Below, in pieces: positions 43,904 to 49,193 of a stretch of DNA of 64,000 nucleotides. The stretch covers positions 2,108,001-2,172,000 of the forward strand of contig NZ_JAZDDH010000001.1 in the NCBI RefSeq assembly GCF_037081715.1, in the 5' to 3' direction. The position numbers and the translations under genes are program-made. How positions within the stretch are numbered: the first letter of the stretch is position 1; every line of letters begins with the position of its first letter. The notes under the pieces were generated by a model, which saw nothing but the letters and a program-made list of their open reading frames with translations, made no database searches and was not told where the DNA came from. The stretch comes from Halalkalicoccus sp. CG83. Its GTDB lineage: Archaea; Halobacteriota; Halobacteria; Halobacteriales; Halalkalicoccaceae.

Positions 43904-44181
43904 TCCTCACCTACTACCGGTTCGGTTCCGTGTTCCTCGCCCCGTTCGAAGACGCGGTTCGCACCCTCCTCGCTCTCCGGCGGGGTGTGATCCACGTCCT
44001 TCATCGTTCCCGAGGCCGGTTCGACCCCGTTCTCCTCCCCACCCGCGTCGACCGCGTTTCGCTCACCGCCGTCGGCGACCACGACGGGCCCGCGCAGGAA
44101 CAGATCGCCCGCGCTGCGGTCGTCGTAGGGGTGGGTGTGATCGATCTCCCTCATCGTTCGTCTCTCGTTGGCGTCAGTCAT
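43900..44181 (-). CDS. 93-aa protein inside the ilv-leu operon, internally repeated
   Basis: This small, very acidic, probably disordered protein lies between ilvC and leuC, overlapping ilvC by 8 nt and leuC by 4 nt. Two halves are related: [20 protein letters not shown] and [20 protein letters not shown] share the M(K/R)(D/E)(I/V)DHT-P core about 50 residues apart. No fold or enzyme motif is seen. Its place in a fully coupled operon argues for a role in branched-chain amino-acid synthesis, perhaps binding one of the enzymes. Confidence 0.72.
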
Positions 44182-45220
44182 CGGCTCTCACTCGCTCCTG
44201 TTCGTCCTCAGCGGTCTCTCCTTCCTCCTCGGCCCACGCGAACAGCGCGCGCAGTTCGGCGCCGACCTCCTCGATCTCGTGGTCCTTCTCGGCCTGGCGG
44301 AGCTGGGTGTAGCTCGGTCGGCCGGCCTGGTTCTCCGCGATCCACTCGCGGGCGAACGTGCCGTCCTGTACGCCCTGGAGGACCTCCTCCATGTTCTCGC
44401 GGGCGTGCTCGTCGACGATCACGTCGCCCTTGGTGAGCCCGCCGTACTCCGCCGTATCGGACACCGAGTCCCACATCTCGCCGAGCCCGCCCTCGTACAT
44501 CAGGTCGACGATCAGCTTCATCTCGTTGAGACACTCGAAGTACGCCATCTGCGGGCTGTAGCCCGCGTCCACGAGCGTCTCGTAACCCTGTTTGATCAGG
44601 CTCGCGATCCCGCCACACAGCACCGCCTGTTCGCCGAAGAGGTCGGTCTCGGTCTCCTCACGGAAGGTGGTCTCGACTACACCCGCGCGCGTACAGCCGA
44701 TGGCTTGGGCGTACGCGAGCGCCTCCTCTTTCGCCTCGCCGGTCGCGTCCTGATACACCGCGAGCAGCGCGGGCGTCCCCTCGTCGTTCTCGTAGTTCCT
44801 CCTGAGGAGATGGCCCGGCGTCTTCGGCGCGATCATCGTCACGTCGACGTCCTCGGAGGGCTGGATCTGGTTGTAGTGGATGTTGAACCCGTGGGCGAAC
44901 TGGAGCGTGTTGCCGGGTTCGAGCTCCTCTTCGATCTCCTCGTAGACTGCGGGCTGGACGGTGTCTGGCACCAGCACGCTCACGATCTGCGCGCGGGCGG
45001 CGGCCTCCTTCGGCGTGGTCACCTCGAGACCGTCCTCCCGGACGGCCTCGCGCGAGGAGGAGTCCTCGCGCAGCCCGACCACGACGTCGATCCCGCTGTC
45101 GGCGAGGTTCTGTGCGTGGGCGTGGCCCTGGCTGCCGTAGCCGAGCACGGCTACGGTCTTGTCCTCGATCTGGCTTCGCTGTGCGTCTTCGTCGTAGTAG
45201 ATGGATGCGTCTTCAGTCAT
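44174..45220 (-). CDS. ilvC: Ketol-acid reductoisomerase
   Basis: IlvC converts acetolactate or acetohydroxybutyrate to the dihydroxy acid with NADPH and Mg2+. The 348-residue class I enzyme has [20 protein letters not shown] (Rossmann motif), [17 protein letters not shown] and the metal site [19 protein letters not shown] plus [20 protein letters not shown]. Start ATG 45220 overlaps ilvN by 8 nt. Confidence 0.96.
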
Positions 45221-45908
45221 TGTTCGTCGGGGTCTGCCAGCGTTCGTGCATTCGTTCGTAGCGTTCCTCCTCGACATCGGTCGTCCACTCGTCGCCCCGG
45301 GCCATCGCGGTCTGGCCGGTGCGCGAGAGCTCGCGGATGCCGAACTGCTGGAACGCGTCGATCGCGTCGTCGATCTTCTGCTCGTCGCCCGTGATCTCGA
45401 CGGTGATGGTCTGCGGGCCGGCGTCGAGGGTCGTGCCGTCGTACATCTCCGTGACGGCGTGGACCTTGTCGGGGTCGCTGCCGTGGACCTTCACGATCAC
45501 CAGCTCGCGTCGGACGGCGTCGCGTCCGAGCTCCTGGACCGAGATGACGGGCACCAGCTTCTCGAGCTGTTTCTCGACCTGTCGGATGCCCGGCTCGGGC
45601 TCCTCGATCACCAGCGTGATGCGCGAGGTCTCGGGGTTGGTCGTCTCTCCGACCGTCAGGCTCTCGATGTTGAACTGGCGTCGGCTCACCAGCCCGGAGG
45701 CCCGCGCGAGCACCCCGGGCTCGTTCTTCACCAGCGCCGAGATCACCGTTCGCCGCGGGTGTCGTTCGGCCTCGACCTCGGGGTCGATCCGCGTCCCCTG
45801 GCTGTTTCGACGCCCGCTCGGACGGGGACGCGCCTCCGGCGGCGGTCCTCGAAGTCCGTTGGTTCGCTCGTACTCGCCCTCGATCTCGGTCTCGGTCTCC
45901 TGGCTCAT
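45213..45908 (-). CDS. ilvN: Acetolactate synthase regulatory (small) subunit
   Basis: IlvN binds valine through ACT domains and controls IlvB. The 231-residue product has an Arg/Pro-rich 48-residue arm, then the ACT domain [20 protein letters not shown] with [20 protein letters not shown], and a second ACT-like half [17 protein letters not shown] and [20 protein letters not shown]. The tail is longer than in bacterial IlvN/IlvH. It overlaps ilvB by 4 nt. Confidence 0.94.
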
Positions 45909-47641
45909 AGCTGGTCCTCCGAGAGGGCGAACTGGCCGTTGTCCCCGCCGCTCGGCACCATCGGGTAGACGTTCGACTCGGGGTCGATGTGGAAGTCGAT
46001 CACCGAGGGTCCGTCGTACTCGAGGGCGGCCTCGACCGTCTCCGCGACCTCGTTGTACTCGGTCACCGAGAAACCGCATGCGCCGAACGCCTCGGCCAGC
46101 TTGTCGAACGCCGGCACCCACGGGTACTGCGAGGCGGAGTGACGGCCCTCGAAGAAGGCGTCCTGCCACTGGCGCACCATCCCGACCGAGGAGTTGTTCA
46201 ACACGGCGACCGTGATGTCGAGGTTCTCGTGGACCGCGACGGCCAGCTCCTGACACGTCATCAGGAAGGAGCCGTCGCCCTCGAAGCAGACGACGTCGCG
46301 GTCGGGCGCCGCGAGCTTCGCGCCGATCGCCGACGGCAGGCCGTAGCCCATCGTCCCCAGCCCGTGGGAGGAGACCCACGTCCGGGGGTGGCGGTAGGTC
46401 CAGTACTGACACGCCCACATCTGGTGCTGGCCGACGCCCGTCGTGACGATCGTCTCGTCGGGCGTCGCCTCGTCCATCGTCTCGACGACGAACTCCGGAC
46501 GCAGCAGTTCGTCCTCGGGCGCGGCGTAGTCCATCGGGTACTCCTCCTTCCACGTCTGACACTGCTCGCGCCACTCGCGTGCGTCGGGCGCGTGCTGCAG
46601 CTCCGCGTCGAGCTGCTCGAGCACCGTCGCGGCGTCGCCGATCGCGGCGACGTCCGCGGTGATGTTCTTCGAGATCTCCGCGGGGTCGATGTCGACGTGG
46701 AGGATCTGTGCGTCGGGCGCGAACGTCTCGACGCCGCCGGTCAGGCGGTCGTCGAACCGACAGCCCACCGCGAGCATCGTATCGCAGTGCGTGATCGCCA
46801 TGTTGGCGTAGCCGGTACCGTGCATGCCGGCCATCTCCATCGCCAGCTCGTGGTCCTCGGGGAACGACCCGAGCGCGGGCATCGTCGTCACGACGGGGAT
46901 CTCGTACTCGGTCGCGAACGCCCGAAGCTGCTCGGTTGCATCGCCCTTGATCACGCCGCCGCCGGCGAGGATGACGGGCTTCTCCGCGGCCTCGAGCGTT
47001 CGCGCGGCGGCCTCGATCGCCTCGTCGTCGGCCTCCATCTGCGGGTCGTACGTGTCGGGCGTTCGTGCTTCACCCGGGGCGCGGTCGGTTGCGCCGTTGG
47101 TGACGTCCTTCGGCAGGTCCACGACCGTCGGTCCCGGCCGACCGGTTCCTGAGAGCGCGAACGCCTCGCCGACGGTGTCGCCGACGGTGTCGGAGTCGGT
47201 CGCGAAGTAGTTCGTCTTCGTGATCGGCGCGGTGATCCCCGTCGTATCGGTCTCCTGGAACGCGTCGTTGCCGACGAACGCCGTCGGCACCTGGCCAGTG
47301 AGCGCGATCATCGGATCGGAGTCCATCGAGGCGTCGGCGATGCCGGTAACGAGGTTCGTCGCGCCCGGTCCGGAGGTCGCAAAGCAGACGCCCGGCTCGC
47401 CGCTGACGATCCCGTAGGCGTCGGCCGCGTGGGCCGCGCCCTGTTCGTGGGCCATCGTCACGTGGTGGATGTCGGAGTCGTAGAGCGCGTCGTAGACGGG
47501 CATGATCGCCCCGCCCTGGACGCCGAAACACGTCTCGACGCCGGCGCCCTCGAGCGCGGCGATGACCGACTCGGCGCCGGTCTCGACGGTTCGCTCCGCG
47601 TCGTCGGTCTCCTCGACCGGGGCGGTGACTCTCTCGCTCAT
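45905..47641 (-). CDS. ilvB: Acetolactate synthase catalytic (large) subunit
   Basis: IlvB is a ThDP- and FAD-dependent enzyme that condenses pyruvate with pyruvate or 2-oxobutyrate. The 578-residue product has VETCFGVQGGAIMPVYDAL, the catalytic Glu in MAHEQGAAHAADAYG, ALTGQVPTAFVGNDAFQETD and the ThDP motif GDGSFLMTCQELAVAV to VLNNSSVGMVRQWQ. The N terminus has a 25-residue acidic lead-in. Its ATG overlaps by 4 nt the stop of a 24-codon ORF, and a leader peptide lies about 140 nt upstream. Confidence 0.96.
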   Translation of the reverse strand: MSERVTAPVEETDDAERTVETGAESVIAALEGAGVETCFGVQGGAIMPVYDALYDSDIHHVTMAHEQGAAHAADAYGIVSGEPGVCFATSGPGATNLVTGIADASMDSDPMIALTGQVPTAFVGNDAFQETDTTGITAPITKTNYFATDSDTVGDTVGEAFALSGTGRPGPTVVDLPKDVTNGATDRAPGEARTPDTYDPQMEADDEAIEAAARTLEAAEKPVILAGGGVIKGDATEQLRAFATEYEIPVVTTMPALGSFPEDHELAMEMAGMHGTGYANMAITHCDTMLAVGCRFDDRLTGGVETFAPDAQILHVDIDPAEISKNITADVAAIGDAATVLEQLDAELQHAPDAREWREQCQTWKEEYPMDYAAPEDELLRPEFVVETMDEATPDETIVTTGVGQHQMWACQYWTYRHPRTWVSSHGLGTMGYGLPSAIGAKLAAPDRDVVCFEGDGSFLMTCQELAVAVHENLDITVAVLNNSSVGMVRQWQDAFFEGRHSASQYPWVPAFDKLAEAFGACGFSVTEYNEVAETVEAALEYDGPSVIDFHIDPESNVYPMVPSGGDNGQFALSEDQL

Positions 47642-47712
47642 CGTTGGGTCGCTCCGTGGTTGGTTTGCGTGCGATGCTGCGGTCGGTTCGGGGTGTAATC
47701 GGGAACGTACAT
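47638..47712 (-). CDS. Small upstream ORF overlapping the ilvB start
   Basis: A 24-residue frame from ATG 47712 (MYVPDYTPNRPQHRTQ) ends at TGA 47638-47640, sharing 4 nt (ATGA) with the ilvB start. All later junctions of this operon overlap by 4 or 8 nt in the same way, so ribosomes finishing this ORF could re-initiate on ilvB. It has no Shine-Dalgarno sequence. The peptide itself, basic and Pro/Gln-rich, is probably unimportant. Confidence 0.5.
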   Translation of the reverse strand: MYVPDYTPNRPQHRTQTNHGATQR

Positions 47713-47773
47713 GGGTAGCGCGCGTGCTGTGGTTCGGGAGAACGGTGCGATCGGATCGGGGGAGGTGGGTGGT

Positions 47774-47792
47774 GTAGGGGCTAGACCCCTAC
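47774..47792 (-). promoter_or_regulatory. Perfect 7-bp hairpin over the leader-peptide stop codon
   Basis: Read on the minus strand, GTAGGGG-TCTAG-CCCCTAC is a perfect 7-bp, GC-rich stem with a 5-nt loop. The left arm holds the last Val-Gly-Val codons of the leader and the loop holds its TAG. A ribosome at the stop would melt it; one stalled on the Leu-Ile-Ile codons just before would not. No T-tract follows, so it is not a simple archaeal terminator. Confidence 0.6.
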
Positions 47793-47867
47793 GATAATGA
47801 GCGCGCGTGCCACGGTCGCGTCGCTGGTGGACGCCTGTGTGCCCCGACCAGCGGTCGCCGTGTTCAT
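47781..47867 (-). CDS. Putative ilv leader peptide, 28 aa, ending LIIVGV
   Basis: A 29-codon frame starts at ATG 47867, about 30 nt downstream of a TATA-like TTTATG (near 47895-47901) and so probably leaderless at the 5' end of the ilvB transcript. The peptide is Ala/Thr-rich and then ends ARALIIVGV, placing Leu, Ile, Ile, Val and Val in its last six residues, directly before the stop. The GTA, GGG, GTC and TAG codons form one arm and the loop of a perfect hairpin. This is the design of branched-chain amino-acid attenuator peptides in bacteria. Confidence 0.65.
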   Translation of the reverse strand: MNTATAGRGTQASTSDATVARALIIVGV

Positions 47868-47893: not shown

Positions 47894-47902
47894 GCATAAA
47901 CC
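47894..47902 (-). promoter_or_regulatory. TATA-like element for the ilvB leader transcript
   Basis: On the minus strand the sequence GGTTTATGC, centred about 30 nt upstream of ATG 47867, stands out in an otherwise very GC-rich region. It predicts transcription starting at or a few bases before the leader-peptide ATG, giving ilvB a 5' leader of about 230 nt. Confidence 0.5.
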
Positions 47903-47971: not shown

Positions 47972-49193
47972 TTACGCGCGTACCTCCTCGTGGCTTACGC
48001 CGATCTCGCGCGCGAAGCGCTTGACGTCGGATCTGGTGACGCGGTTCTTCTCCGCGCCGTGGTCCTTCACCCGCCGGGTGATCTCCTTGACCTCGTCGTC
48101 GGTGGGGGAGAAGCCCGCCTCGTCCAGGAACTGCCGGACCGAGTGGGTGCCGGTGTGTTTTCCGAGCACCAGTTCGCGGCGCGCGCCGACCATCTCGGGG
48201 GTCATCACGCCCGGCTCGAACGTGTCGCTGTTCTCGATGACGCCGGCGGCGTGGATCCCGCTCTCGTGGGAGAAGGCGTTCTGGCCCACGATCGGCTTGT
48301 TCGCCGGGACGGGGACGTCGCTCTTCTCCTCGATCATCCGCGACAGCTCGGTGATGCGCGTCGTGTCGATGCCGGTGTCGACGCCGTAGATCGCCTCGGC
48401 GGCCATCACGACCTCCTCGTAGGCCGCGTTGCCCGCGCGCTCGCCGATGCCGTTGACGCTCACCTGGGCCTGCTCGGCGCCGGCCTCGAAGCCGGCGATG
48501 GCGTTCGCGCTCGCCATCCCGAAGTCGTCGTGGGCGTGGACGTCGATCCGCGCGTCGGTGTGCTCCTTCACCTCGCGGACCAGCGAGCCCATTCGGCTGG
48601 GGCTCGCGACCCCGCAGGTGTCGGGAATGTTGATCCAGTCGACGCCGACCTCGTCGACGGCCTCGACGATCTCCATCAGGAACGCGGTGTCCGTTCGGGT
48701 GGCGTCCATCGGCGAGAACATCACCTCGACGCCGGCCTCGTTGGCCCGGCGGACCGCCTCGACGGCCTGCTCGGTGACGTCCCCGCGGGTCGCGTGCATC
48801 GAGTCCTCGATCTGGACGTCGCTGGTGGAGACGAACGTGTGCACCATGTCGACGCCGCTGTCGATCGCTGCCTCGATGTCCTTCTCGACCACCCGGGCCA
48901 GCCCGCAGGTGGTCGTGTGCGTTGCCTTGGCGATGTCCCGGACGGCCTCGAACTCGGCGTCGCCGTTGACCGGGAAGCCCGCCTCGATGACGTGGGTGCC
49001 CATCTCGTCGAGCACCGCCGCTATCTCGCGTTTGTCGTCGTACGAGAACGAAGTTCGAGGCGTCTGTTCGCCGTCCCGGAGCGTAGTATCGAAGACCCGT
49101 GCGGTCTCGATCTCGTTATTGGAAGCTAACGTGCCCTGGAAGAACTCGACCCCCCCGACTGGTGTCGGAGGAGCCCATGGTGTGATCGGACAT
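47972..49193 (-). CDS. leuA: 2-isopropylmalate synthase, with a frameshift near the start
   Basis: LeuA condenses acetyl-CoA with 2-oxoisovalerate, the first step to leucine. The in-phase part contains VFDTTLRDGEQTPRTSFSYD (metal-binding DTTLRDGEQ), INIPDTCGVASPSR, IDVHAHDDFGMASANA (HAHDD metal site) and NAFSHESGIHAAGV. The true N terminus, from ATG 49193 (MSDHTMGSSDTSRG), is out of phase: a run of seven C on the plus strand (49150-49156) must lose one base to join GVEFFQGTLASNNEI. A TATA-like TTTATATA at about 49219-49226 fits a leaderless start at 49193. Only GTG 49015 is available without the correction. Citramalate synthase is a less likely alternative. Confidence 0.85.

Follow-up and report, generated by a model that had tools for sequence, protein, structure and literature searches.

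The region between leuA and ilvB in Halalkalicoccus sp. CG83 raises the question of whether an archaeal operon for branched-chain amino acid synthesis can be governed by a leader peptide. Attenuation by a leader peptide belongs to the textbook mechanisms of bacteria, and we know of no archaeal case; no archaeal leader peptide or attenuation was found in the open-access literature, which omits most subscription papers, and a Ribo-seq paper in it does not mention ilv. Among bacteria, such attenuators are known for ilv genes (PMC10272879, PMC11857589). In the window, by which we mean the whole stretch of 64,000 nucleotides analysed here, the minus strand carries leuA, which stops at 47972-47974, and ilvB, which starts at 47641; the leader sits between the two. 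The downstream operon, identified with NCBIfam models, is ilvB-ilvN-ilvC, and in Haloferax volcanii ilvB1 and ilvC insertion mutants require valine, leucine and isoleucine (PMC4300041).

An initial annotation of this DNA had pointed to a 28-codon leaderless ORF (here uORF1), to a TATA-like element about 30 nt upstream of it and to a hairpin over its stop codon, all of which are indeed present (Table 1). The last codons of the window copy, GTA GGG GTC TAG, fall inside the hairpin, a 19-mer that occurs once in the genome and whose fold has a z score of -3.1 against dinucleotide shuffles. From the comparisons set out below, which are comparisons of sequences, we conclude that the ilvBNC leader is probably a leader-peptide attenuator reading the charging of valine (and isoleucine) tRNA.

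Table 1. Features of the leuA-ilvB region, in coordinates of the window
Feature	Position	Strand	Remark
TATA-like element TTTATG, internal promoter	47895..47900	(-)	33 nt 5' of ATG1
uORF1, leaderless leader peptide MNTATAGRGTQASTSDATVARALIIVGV, then stop	47781..47867	(-)	28 sense codons
Proposed sensor codons ATT ATC GTA (Ile Ile Val)	47790..47798	(-)	conserved core is Ile-GTA
Hairpin GTAGGGG-TCTAG-CCCCTAC (GTAGGGGTCTAGCCCCTAC) spanning the uORF1 stop	47774..47792	(-)	-12.1 kcal/mol
uORF1 stop TAG, in the hairpin loop	47781..47783	(-)	in-frame stop at +9 to +24 in 94/94 loci
Pyrimidine-rich linker	47713..47773	(-)	partly conserved TTCGCAYCG box in relatives (alignment)
uORF2 MYVPDYTPNRPQHRTQTNHGATQR, then stop	47638..47712	(-)	TGA overlaps ilvB ATG; such overlap in 89/94 loci
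Bridge ORF, 110 codons	47638..47970	(-)	ATG 4 nt from leuA stop; TGA overlaps ilvB ATG
ilvB, acetolactate synthase large subunit	45905..47641	(-)	TIGR00118, E 4e-215
ilvN, acetolactate synthase small subunit	45213..45905	(-)	TIGR00119, E 7e-47; start approximate
ilvC, ketol-acid reductoisomerase	44174..45277	(-)	TIGR00465, E 1e-130; longest ORF given, with the actual start probably more internal
leuA with leaderless 5' ORF	47972..49193	(-)	ATG at 49193; proposed +1 shift at CTT 49142-49140

The ilvB leader across haloarchaea

We compared 80 haloarchaeal ilvB loci and 20 upstream regions from relatives of the same genus, family or order, which together yielded the 94 non-duplicate, element-bearing sequences on which the following counts are based; these loci share descent, so that the counts are not independent trials. 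The closest ilvB among named loci is that of H. paucihalophilus, with 85% identity. The uORF1 frame is open in all 94 leaders and the codons GTA GGG are invariant. A stop first closes this frame 9-24 nt past GTA in every case, though its type and place vary: TAG at +12 (61 loci), +9 (11), +24 (9) or +18 (2), TGA at +9 (6) and TAA at +9 (5). Nine loci have absorbed the loop TAG into a longer G-C stem and stop four codons later, with the frame kept. The residue that precedes GTA is Ile in 93 of the 94, written as ATT, ATC or ATA, and the residue that follows GGG is Ala in 81 and Val in 13. The conserved end of the peptide is Ile-Val-Gly-(Ala/Val), with the in-frame stop in, or adjoining, a GGGG/CCCC hairpin. 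Conservation of this kind greatly exceeds what chance would give. The ending LIIVGV singled out by the initial annotation holds for the window copy, but its Leu and its second Ile are not general.

The start of uORF1 appears to be tied to the promoter. The distance from the TATA-like hexamer to the best-scoring start is 33 nt in 70 of the 94 loci, another 12 having 32 nt, and in a count blind to frame the ATGs found 27-33 nt past TTAT share the frame of GTA in 78 cases out of 78. The choice of codons is just as peculiar: GTA makes up 0.4% of the Val codons in the ilvB genes of these loci as against 94/94 leaders, and ATT 6.2% of the Ile codons as against 78/94. The body of uORF1 is almost unconstrained, its differences being spread over the three codon positions at 31/34/35%, and selection on it as a peptide is weak at best. 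The GGGG-CCCC spacing (5-9 nt) and the distance from promoter to motif are variable too.

The element spans 14 of the 17 families sampled. ORF, tail, stop and hairpin are kept while the Ile codon drifts synonymously, a strongly positive outcome of the comparison that the initial annotation had proposed. It was read in two Haloferax species (L059, L079). Among 19 further upstream regions, mostly from other families, it is present in 14 and in variant form in one more (L210), which retains GTA with a stem that has become GGGCC/GGCCC; it is absent from the remaining four, all of families f10 and f12, where leuA and ilvB lie close together in the loci inspected. Two leaders from AT-richer genomes (L205, L206) retain V-G-A-stop with altered stems, GGG having become GGT in one of them. 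Within the genome of the window, an ilvB paralogue on contig 4 is without the element. With a covariance model of the hairpin, matches at E 0.01 were obtained for 256 of the 394 class-level genomes. The window's own hairpin, with its short loop, scores only 0.026, which makes this count a lower bound. In an alignment of 34 sequences the GGGG/CCCC pairs are invariant and two inner pairs are changed on both sides, so that the covariation support is modest and comes mainly from the divergent genomes. A search with a general hairpin pattern gave 21 matches in 14 genomes, which on inspection were ilvB, valS and three chance matches.

Leaders ahead of valS

Many genomes contain a second match to the covariance model, which lies upstream of valS wherever it was followed up. 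The leader there has the form TTC GTA GGG GCN NNN TAG (..FVGA(P/S/F)-stop), with a hairpin as at ilvB; in one family it reads VVVGA-stop (GTC GTA GTA GGG), again with that hairpin, and in a Haloarcula-like genome ..VPVVGAPMPH-stop, with GTA GTA. A different type of ValRS, which includes that of the window genome, is preceded by a mini-ORF of 7-14 codons in which GTA GTA CGY is followed by a stop, with no such hairpin. Of the 31 loci tried for this second design, most place the mini-ORF at a leaderless distance from a TATA-like box, and those from small or deep-branching genomes are without it. Its peptides include MSVTQSVVRR-stop (this genome, L153) and MTVVVRG-stop, in a set made up of L151-L156 and L176-L200. 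At ileS and leuS, both examined in one set of nine genomes, no leader ORF precedes the gene, which begins as an ordinary leaderless one.

The Val codon GTA is thus common to the ilvB leaders and to both kinds of valS leader, while the residue that precedes it (Ile, Phe or Val) differs in a way that fits the gene served. It is because otherwise different leaders have Val codons in common that we may understand them as sensors of the charging of Val (plus Ile) tRNA. The control by isoleucine, leucine and valine proposed by the initial annotation is supported for the first and the last, by the conservation at ilvB and by the valS module; leucine does not belong to the conserved part of the proposed sensor. 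Among the best 30 of the 44 tRNA loci of the genome, which could be typed, tRNA-Val genes with anticodons TAC, GAC and CAC are found, that with TAC once, together with tRNA-Ile(GAT).

The hairpin, the bridge ORF and the rival explanations

In the full leader the hairpin forms with a mean probability of 0.97 (89 leaders). Blocking its 5' arm in silico, as a stalled ribosome would do, opens up nothing but the 3' arm, with no change in the predicted access to ATG2, the start of uORF2, or to the ilvB start; an antiterminator, or sequestration of a start site, was rejected on this ground. Pairing of the linker as an anti-Shine-Dalgarno sequence with the ilvB start also fails, native pairs having no advantage over swapped or shuffled ones. 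Neither an alternative antiterminator of the classical kind nor a fold sequestering a ribosome binding site was found with these two tests, which would leave the hairpin on its own as the effector. Rfam returned no match at the gathering threshold in the window and at the valS loci, with a sub-threshold chance match near the leader. No T-run follows the hairpin, as the initial annotation had remarked; its further step, that the mechanism be translational for this reason, does not follow. In a reporter used in H. volcanii, a hairpin element that occurs ahead of termination sites ended 59% of transcripts (PMC7237163), which makes transcriptional attenuation plausible even without a T-tract. A link of FttA-dependent termination to translation is an open proposal in archaea (PMC11616081).

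Codon content, frame, promoter spacing, hairpin and coupling geometry are seen in the sequence, and from them we infer the output step, which is most likely transcriptional attenuation, a translational output being the main rival. The internal promoter would give a leaderless mRNA whose first ORF, uORF1, closes on rare codons for Ile and Val. When charged tRNA suffices, the ribosome would complete uORF1 and depart, the hairpin would fold, and expression of ilvBNC would be lowered, most likely by termination or pausing of transcription at this place. A shortage of Ile-tRNA, or of the Val-tRNA that serves GTA, namely tRNA-Val(TAC), would stall the ribosome with such codons in its A site. The ribosome would then mask the GGGG arm, so that no hairpin would form and RNA polymerase would continue into uORF2 and ilvB.

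Several lines of evidence support this attenuator: the frame, the Ile-GTA-GGG core and the in-frame stop are kept across the 94 loci; the ATG is pinned to the promoter in the frame of GTA; rare codons are used to an extreme degree, Ile being kept through three different codons; the valS module swaps Ile for Phe or Val yet retains Val; the other ValRS type has its own GTA GTA mini-ORF while ileS and leuS have none; the hairpin is robust, with altered pairs in the three divergent leaders named above; and a tRNA-Val(TAC) gene is present, to which the H. volcanii terminator and auxotrophy results may be added (PMC7237163, PMC4300041). The argument rests on the spread over families, on the separate valS leaders and on changes that preserve frame and pairing. 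Against it stand the lack of a T-tract and of a competing antiterminator fold in the leader, and no element was seen that would pause RNA polymerase to match the pace of the ribosome. The output may differ at valS, as the hairpin-less leaders there have the Val codons without the hairpin.

An additional ORF has to be considered. Wherever the end of leuA was identified (93/93 loci), there is an ORF, 72-182 codons long, that begins close to the leuA stop (-1 to +12 nt); it terminates on the ilvB start in 77 of 88, while in six further loci the stop falls across ATG2. This bridge ORF covers the promoter and the hairpin, overlaps uORF1 in a different frame, contains uORF2 in the window copy, and has no match to an NCBIfam family. 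In most genomes, the small ORF at the ilvB start is the tail of this longer one. The simplest reading is that transcripts running through from leuA need translation across the gap, which would keep the hairpin open, avoid polarity or deliver ribosomes to ilvB; ribosomes on the bridge ORF would then allow such transcripts to escape the attenuator. A T precedes ATY GTA in 85 of the 94 leaders (window 47796, minus strand), as the last base of a codon that varies between Arg, Ile, Gly and Val. It may reflect a Tyr of the bridge ORF or a nucleotide signal, and shows some constraint beyond the peptide, a point against the attenuator.

The same sensor could have a translational output: after termination on uORF1 the hairpin would block post-termination ribosomes or initiation at ATG2, and a stalled ribosome would open it, so that uORF2 is translated and ilvB follows through the overlap of stop and start. 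The nearly fixed distance of ATG2 (mostly 77-89 nt) and the ATGA or GTGA overlap of a small ORF with the main start, in 89/94 ilvB loci and, as ATGA, in 13/15 valS loci, favour this scheme, and coupling by overlap is documented in H. volcanii (PMC12548453); what the overlaps display is the geometry of translational coupling only. The predicted access to ATG2 and to the ilvB start, unmoved by blocking the arm, and the failure of native linker pairs to outdo swapped ones tell against it, and we consider it unlikely. A quite different delivery, by slippage of a ribosome at a hungry GTA into the -1 frame, that of the bridge ORF, and on through the hairpin to the ilvB start, might be suggested by that frame being open in 78/89 ilvB leaders, next to a leuA that itself resembles a +1 frameshift gene. 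The bridge ORF coming from leuA already explains the open frame, however, the shifted frame is not consistently open in valS leaders and there is no classic -1 slippery heptamer, which makes this delivery very improbable.

It might also be argued that the palindrome is a DNA operator, or an RNA site bound by a protein, and the ORF incidental, since the invariant GTAGGGG and the T before the Ile codon imply nucleotide constraint beyond the peptide. This strikes us as very improbable: the GGGG-CCCC spacing and the distance to the promoter vary, the stops change type and position yet remain in frame, the swaps between Ile, Phe and Val suit the gene served, and the hairpin-less valS leaders retain only the Val codons. 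Finally, the leader could be the by-product of an overlapping gene for a small protein, namely the bridge ORF, which is present throughout and in whose frame Y(C/R)RG is frequent; what is conserved would then be its YCRG..LAP segment. We give hardly any credence to this, as the Ile of uORF1 is kept while the bridge residue switches between Cys, Arg and Ser, and as the valS copies, which have no leuA upstream and in which a bridge frame is not consistently open, still have the hairpin and V-G-A-stop.

The leuA start, known systems and minor features

The upstream neighbour has a peculiarity of its own. In 79/79 loci the leuA frame lies at +1 with respect to a leaderless ORF that begins about 34 nt past a TATA box, and in 64 of the 79 the 150 nt ahead of the conserved DTTLRDGEQ contain no ATG, GTG or TTG in frame with leuA. 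In the window (49193-49116, minus strand) this leaderless ORF, MSDHTMGSSDTSRGGRVLPGHVSFQ followed by a stop, overlaps the 5' end of leuA in the 0 frame; the loci surveyed are drawn from L002-L081. The sequence GTT CTT C is invariant at the leuA 5' end (79 loci) and lies 55 nt before DTTLRDGEQ in 76 of them; CTT accounts for 2.2% of the Leu codons in ilvB. This suggests a programmed +1 frameshift at the rare Leu codon CTT. The missing start of leuA in some haloarchaea has already been noted by Pfeiffer and Dyall-Smith, who raised slippage and a dependence on leucine (PMC8305020); the present data extend this to all 79 loci. We may tentatively envisage, as one possibility, a network of branched-chain control based on ribosomes with separate codon sensors: a +1 shift at CTT in leuA, the Ile-Val leader with hairpin at ilvBNC, and Val leaders of two unrelated designs at valS, with the bridge ORF passing translation from leuA to ilvB and so overriding the ilvB attenuator when leucine is short.

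Bacterial ilvBNC attenuators of the Corynebacterium type likewise have a short leader ORF with end-product codons near its end and an RNA hairpin adjoining it, directly upstream of the ilvB operon (PMC10272879, PMC11857589). The haloarchaeal leader differs from them in its leaderless initiation from an archaeal TATA promoter, in its single hairpin over the stop codon, in having neither U-tract nor alternative antiterminator, in relying on one or two Ile/Val codons with the extremely rare GTA, and in the bridge ORF that occupies another frame. Compared with the trp/ilv type, it has the end-product codons in a leader ORF upstream of ilvB-ilvN-ilvC; of the terminator it has the conserved hairpin only, without a T-run, and, as blocking the 5' arm frees just the 3' arm, there is no mutually exclusive antiterminator. 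In arrest leaders of the TnaC or Erm type, the position of the stalled ribosome masks or frees the RNA immediately downstream, and here too its position would govern the adjacent RNA; unlike them, uORF1 has no conserved arrest-peptide body, only its last residues being constrained. T-box riboswitches control ilv and valS in the Bacillota, with tRNA charging as their input. The gene set (branched-chain synthesis and valyl-tRNA synthetase) and the logical input would be the same, but there is no Rfam match and in haloarchaea the input would be read by a translating ribosome. The start-codon problem of leuA2 (HVO_1510), for which slippage and translation only without leucine were speculated, concerns a neighbouring gene; it differs in involving leuA rather than ilvB or valS, and frameshifting as the proposed mechanism (PMC8305020).

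If the attenuator is real, archaea with TATA promoters, leaderless mRNAs and a eukaryote-like transcription would also gauge tRNA charging by means of a translating ribosome, and the leader would offer a natural system for the study of transcription-translation coupling and of archaeal termination that depends on a hairpin or on a factor. Most haloarchaeal families have the element, and Haloferax volcanii is suited for tests.

Some minor features deserve mention. The TTCGCAYCG box is conserved in the linker between hairpin and uORF2, in the window as in relatives, and uORF2 peptides share a recurrent YRP/YRRP motif. A highly conserved block, CGTTTCGACGGATGTATTGTNNCCGACCAG, lies directly 3' of the valS hairpin in L115-L126 (families f7 and f8).
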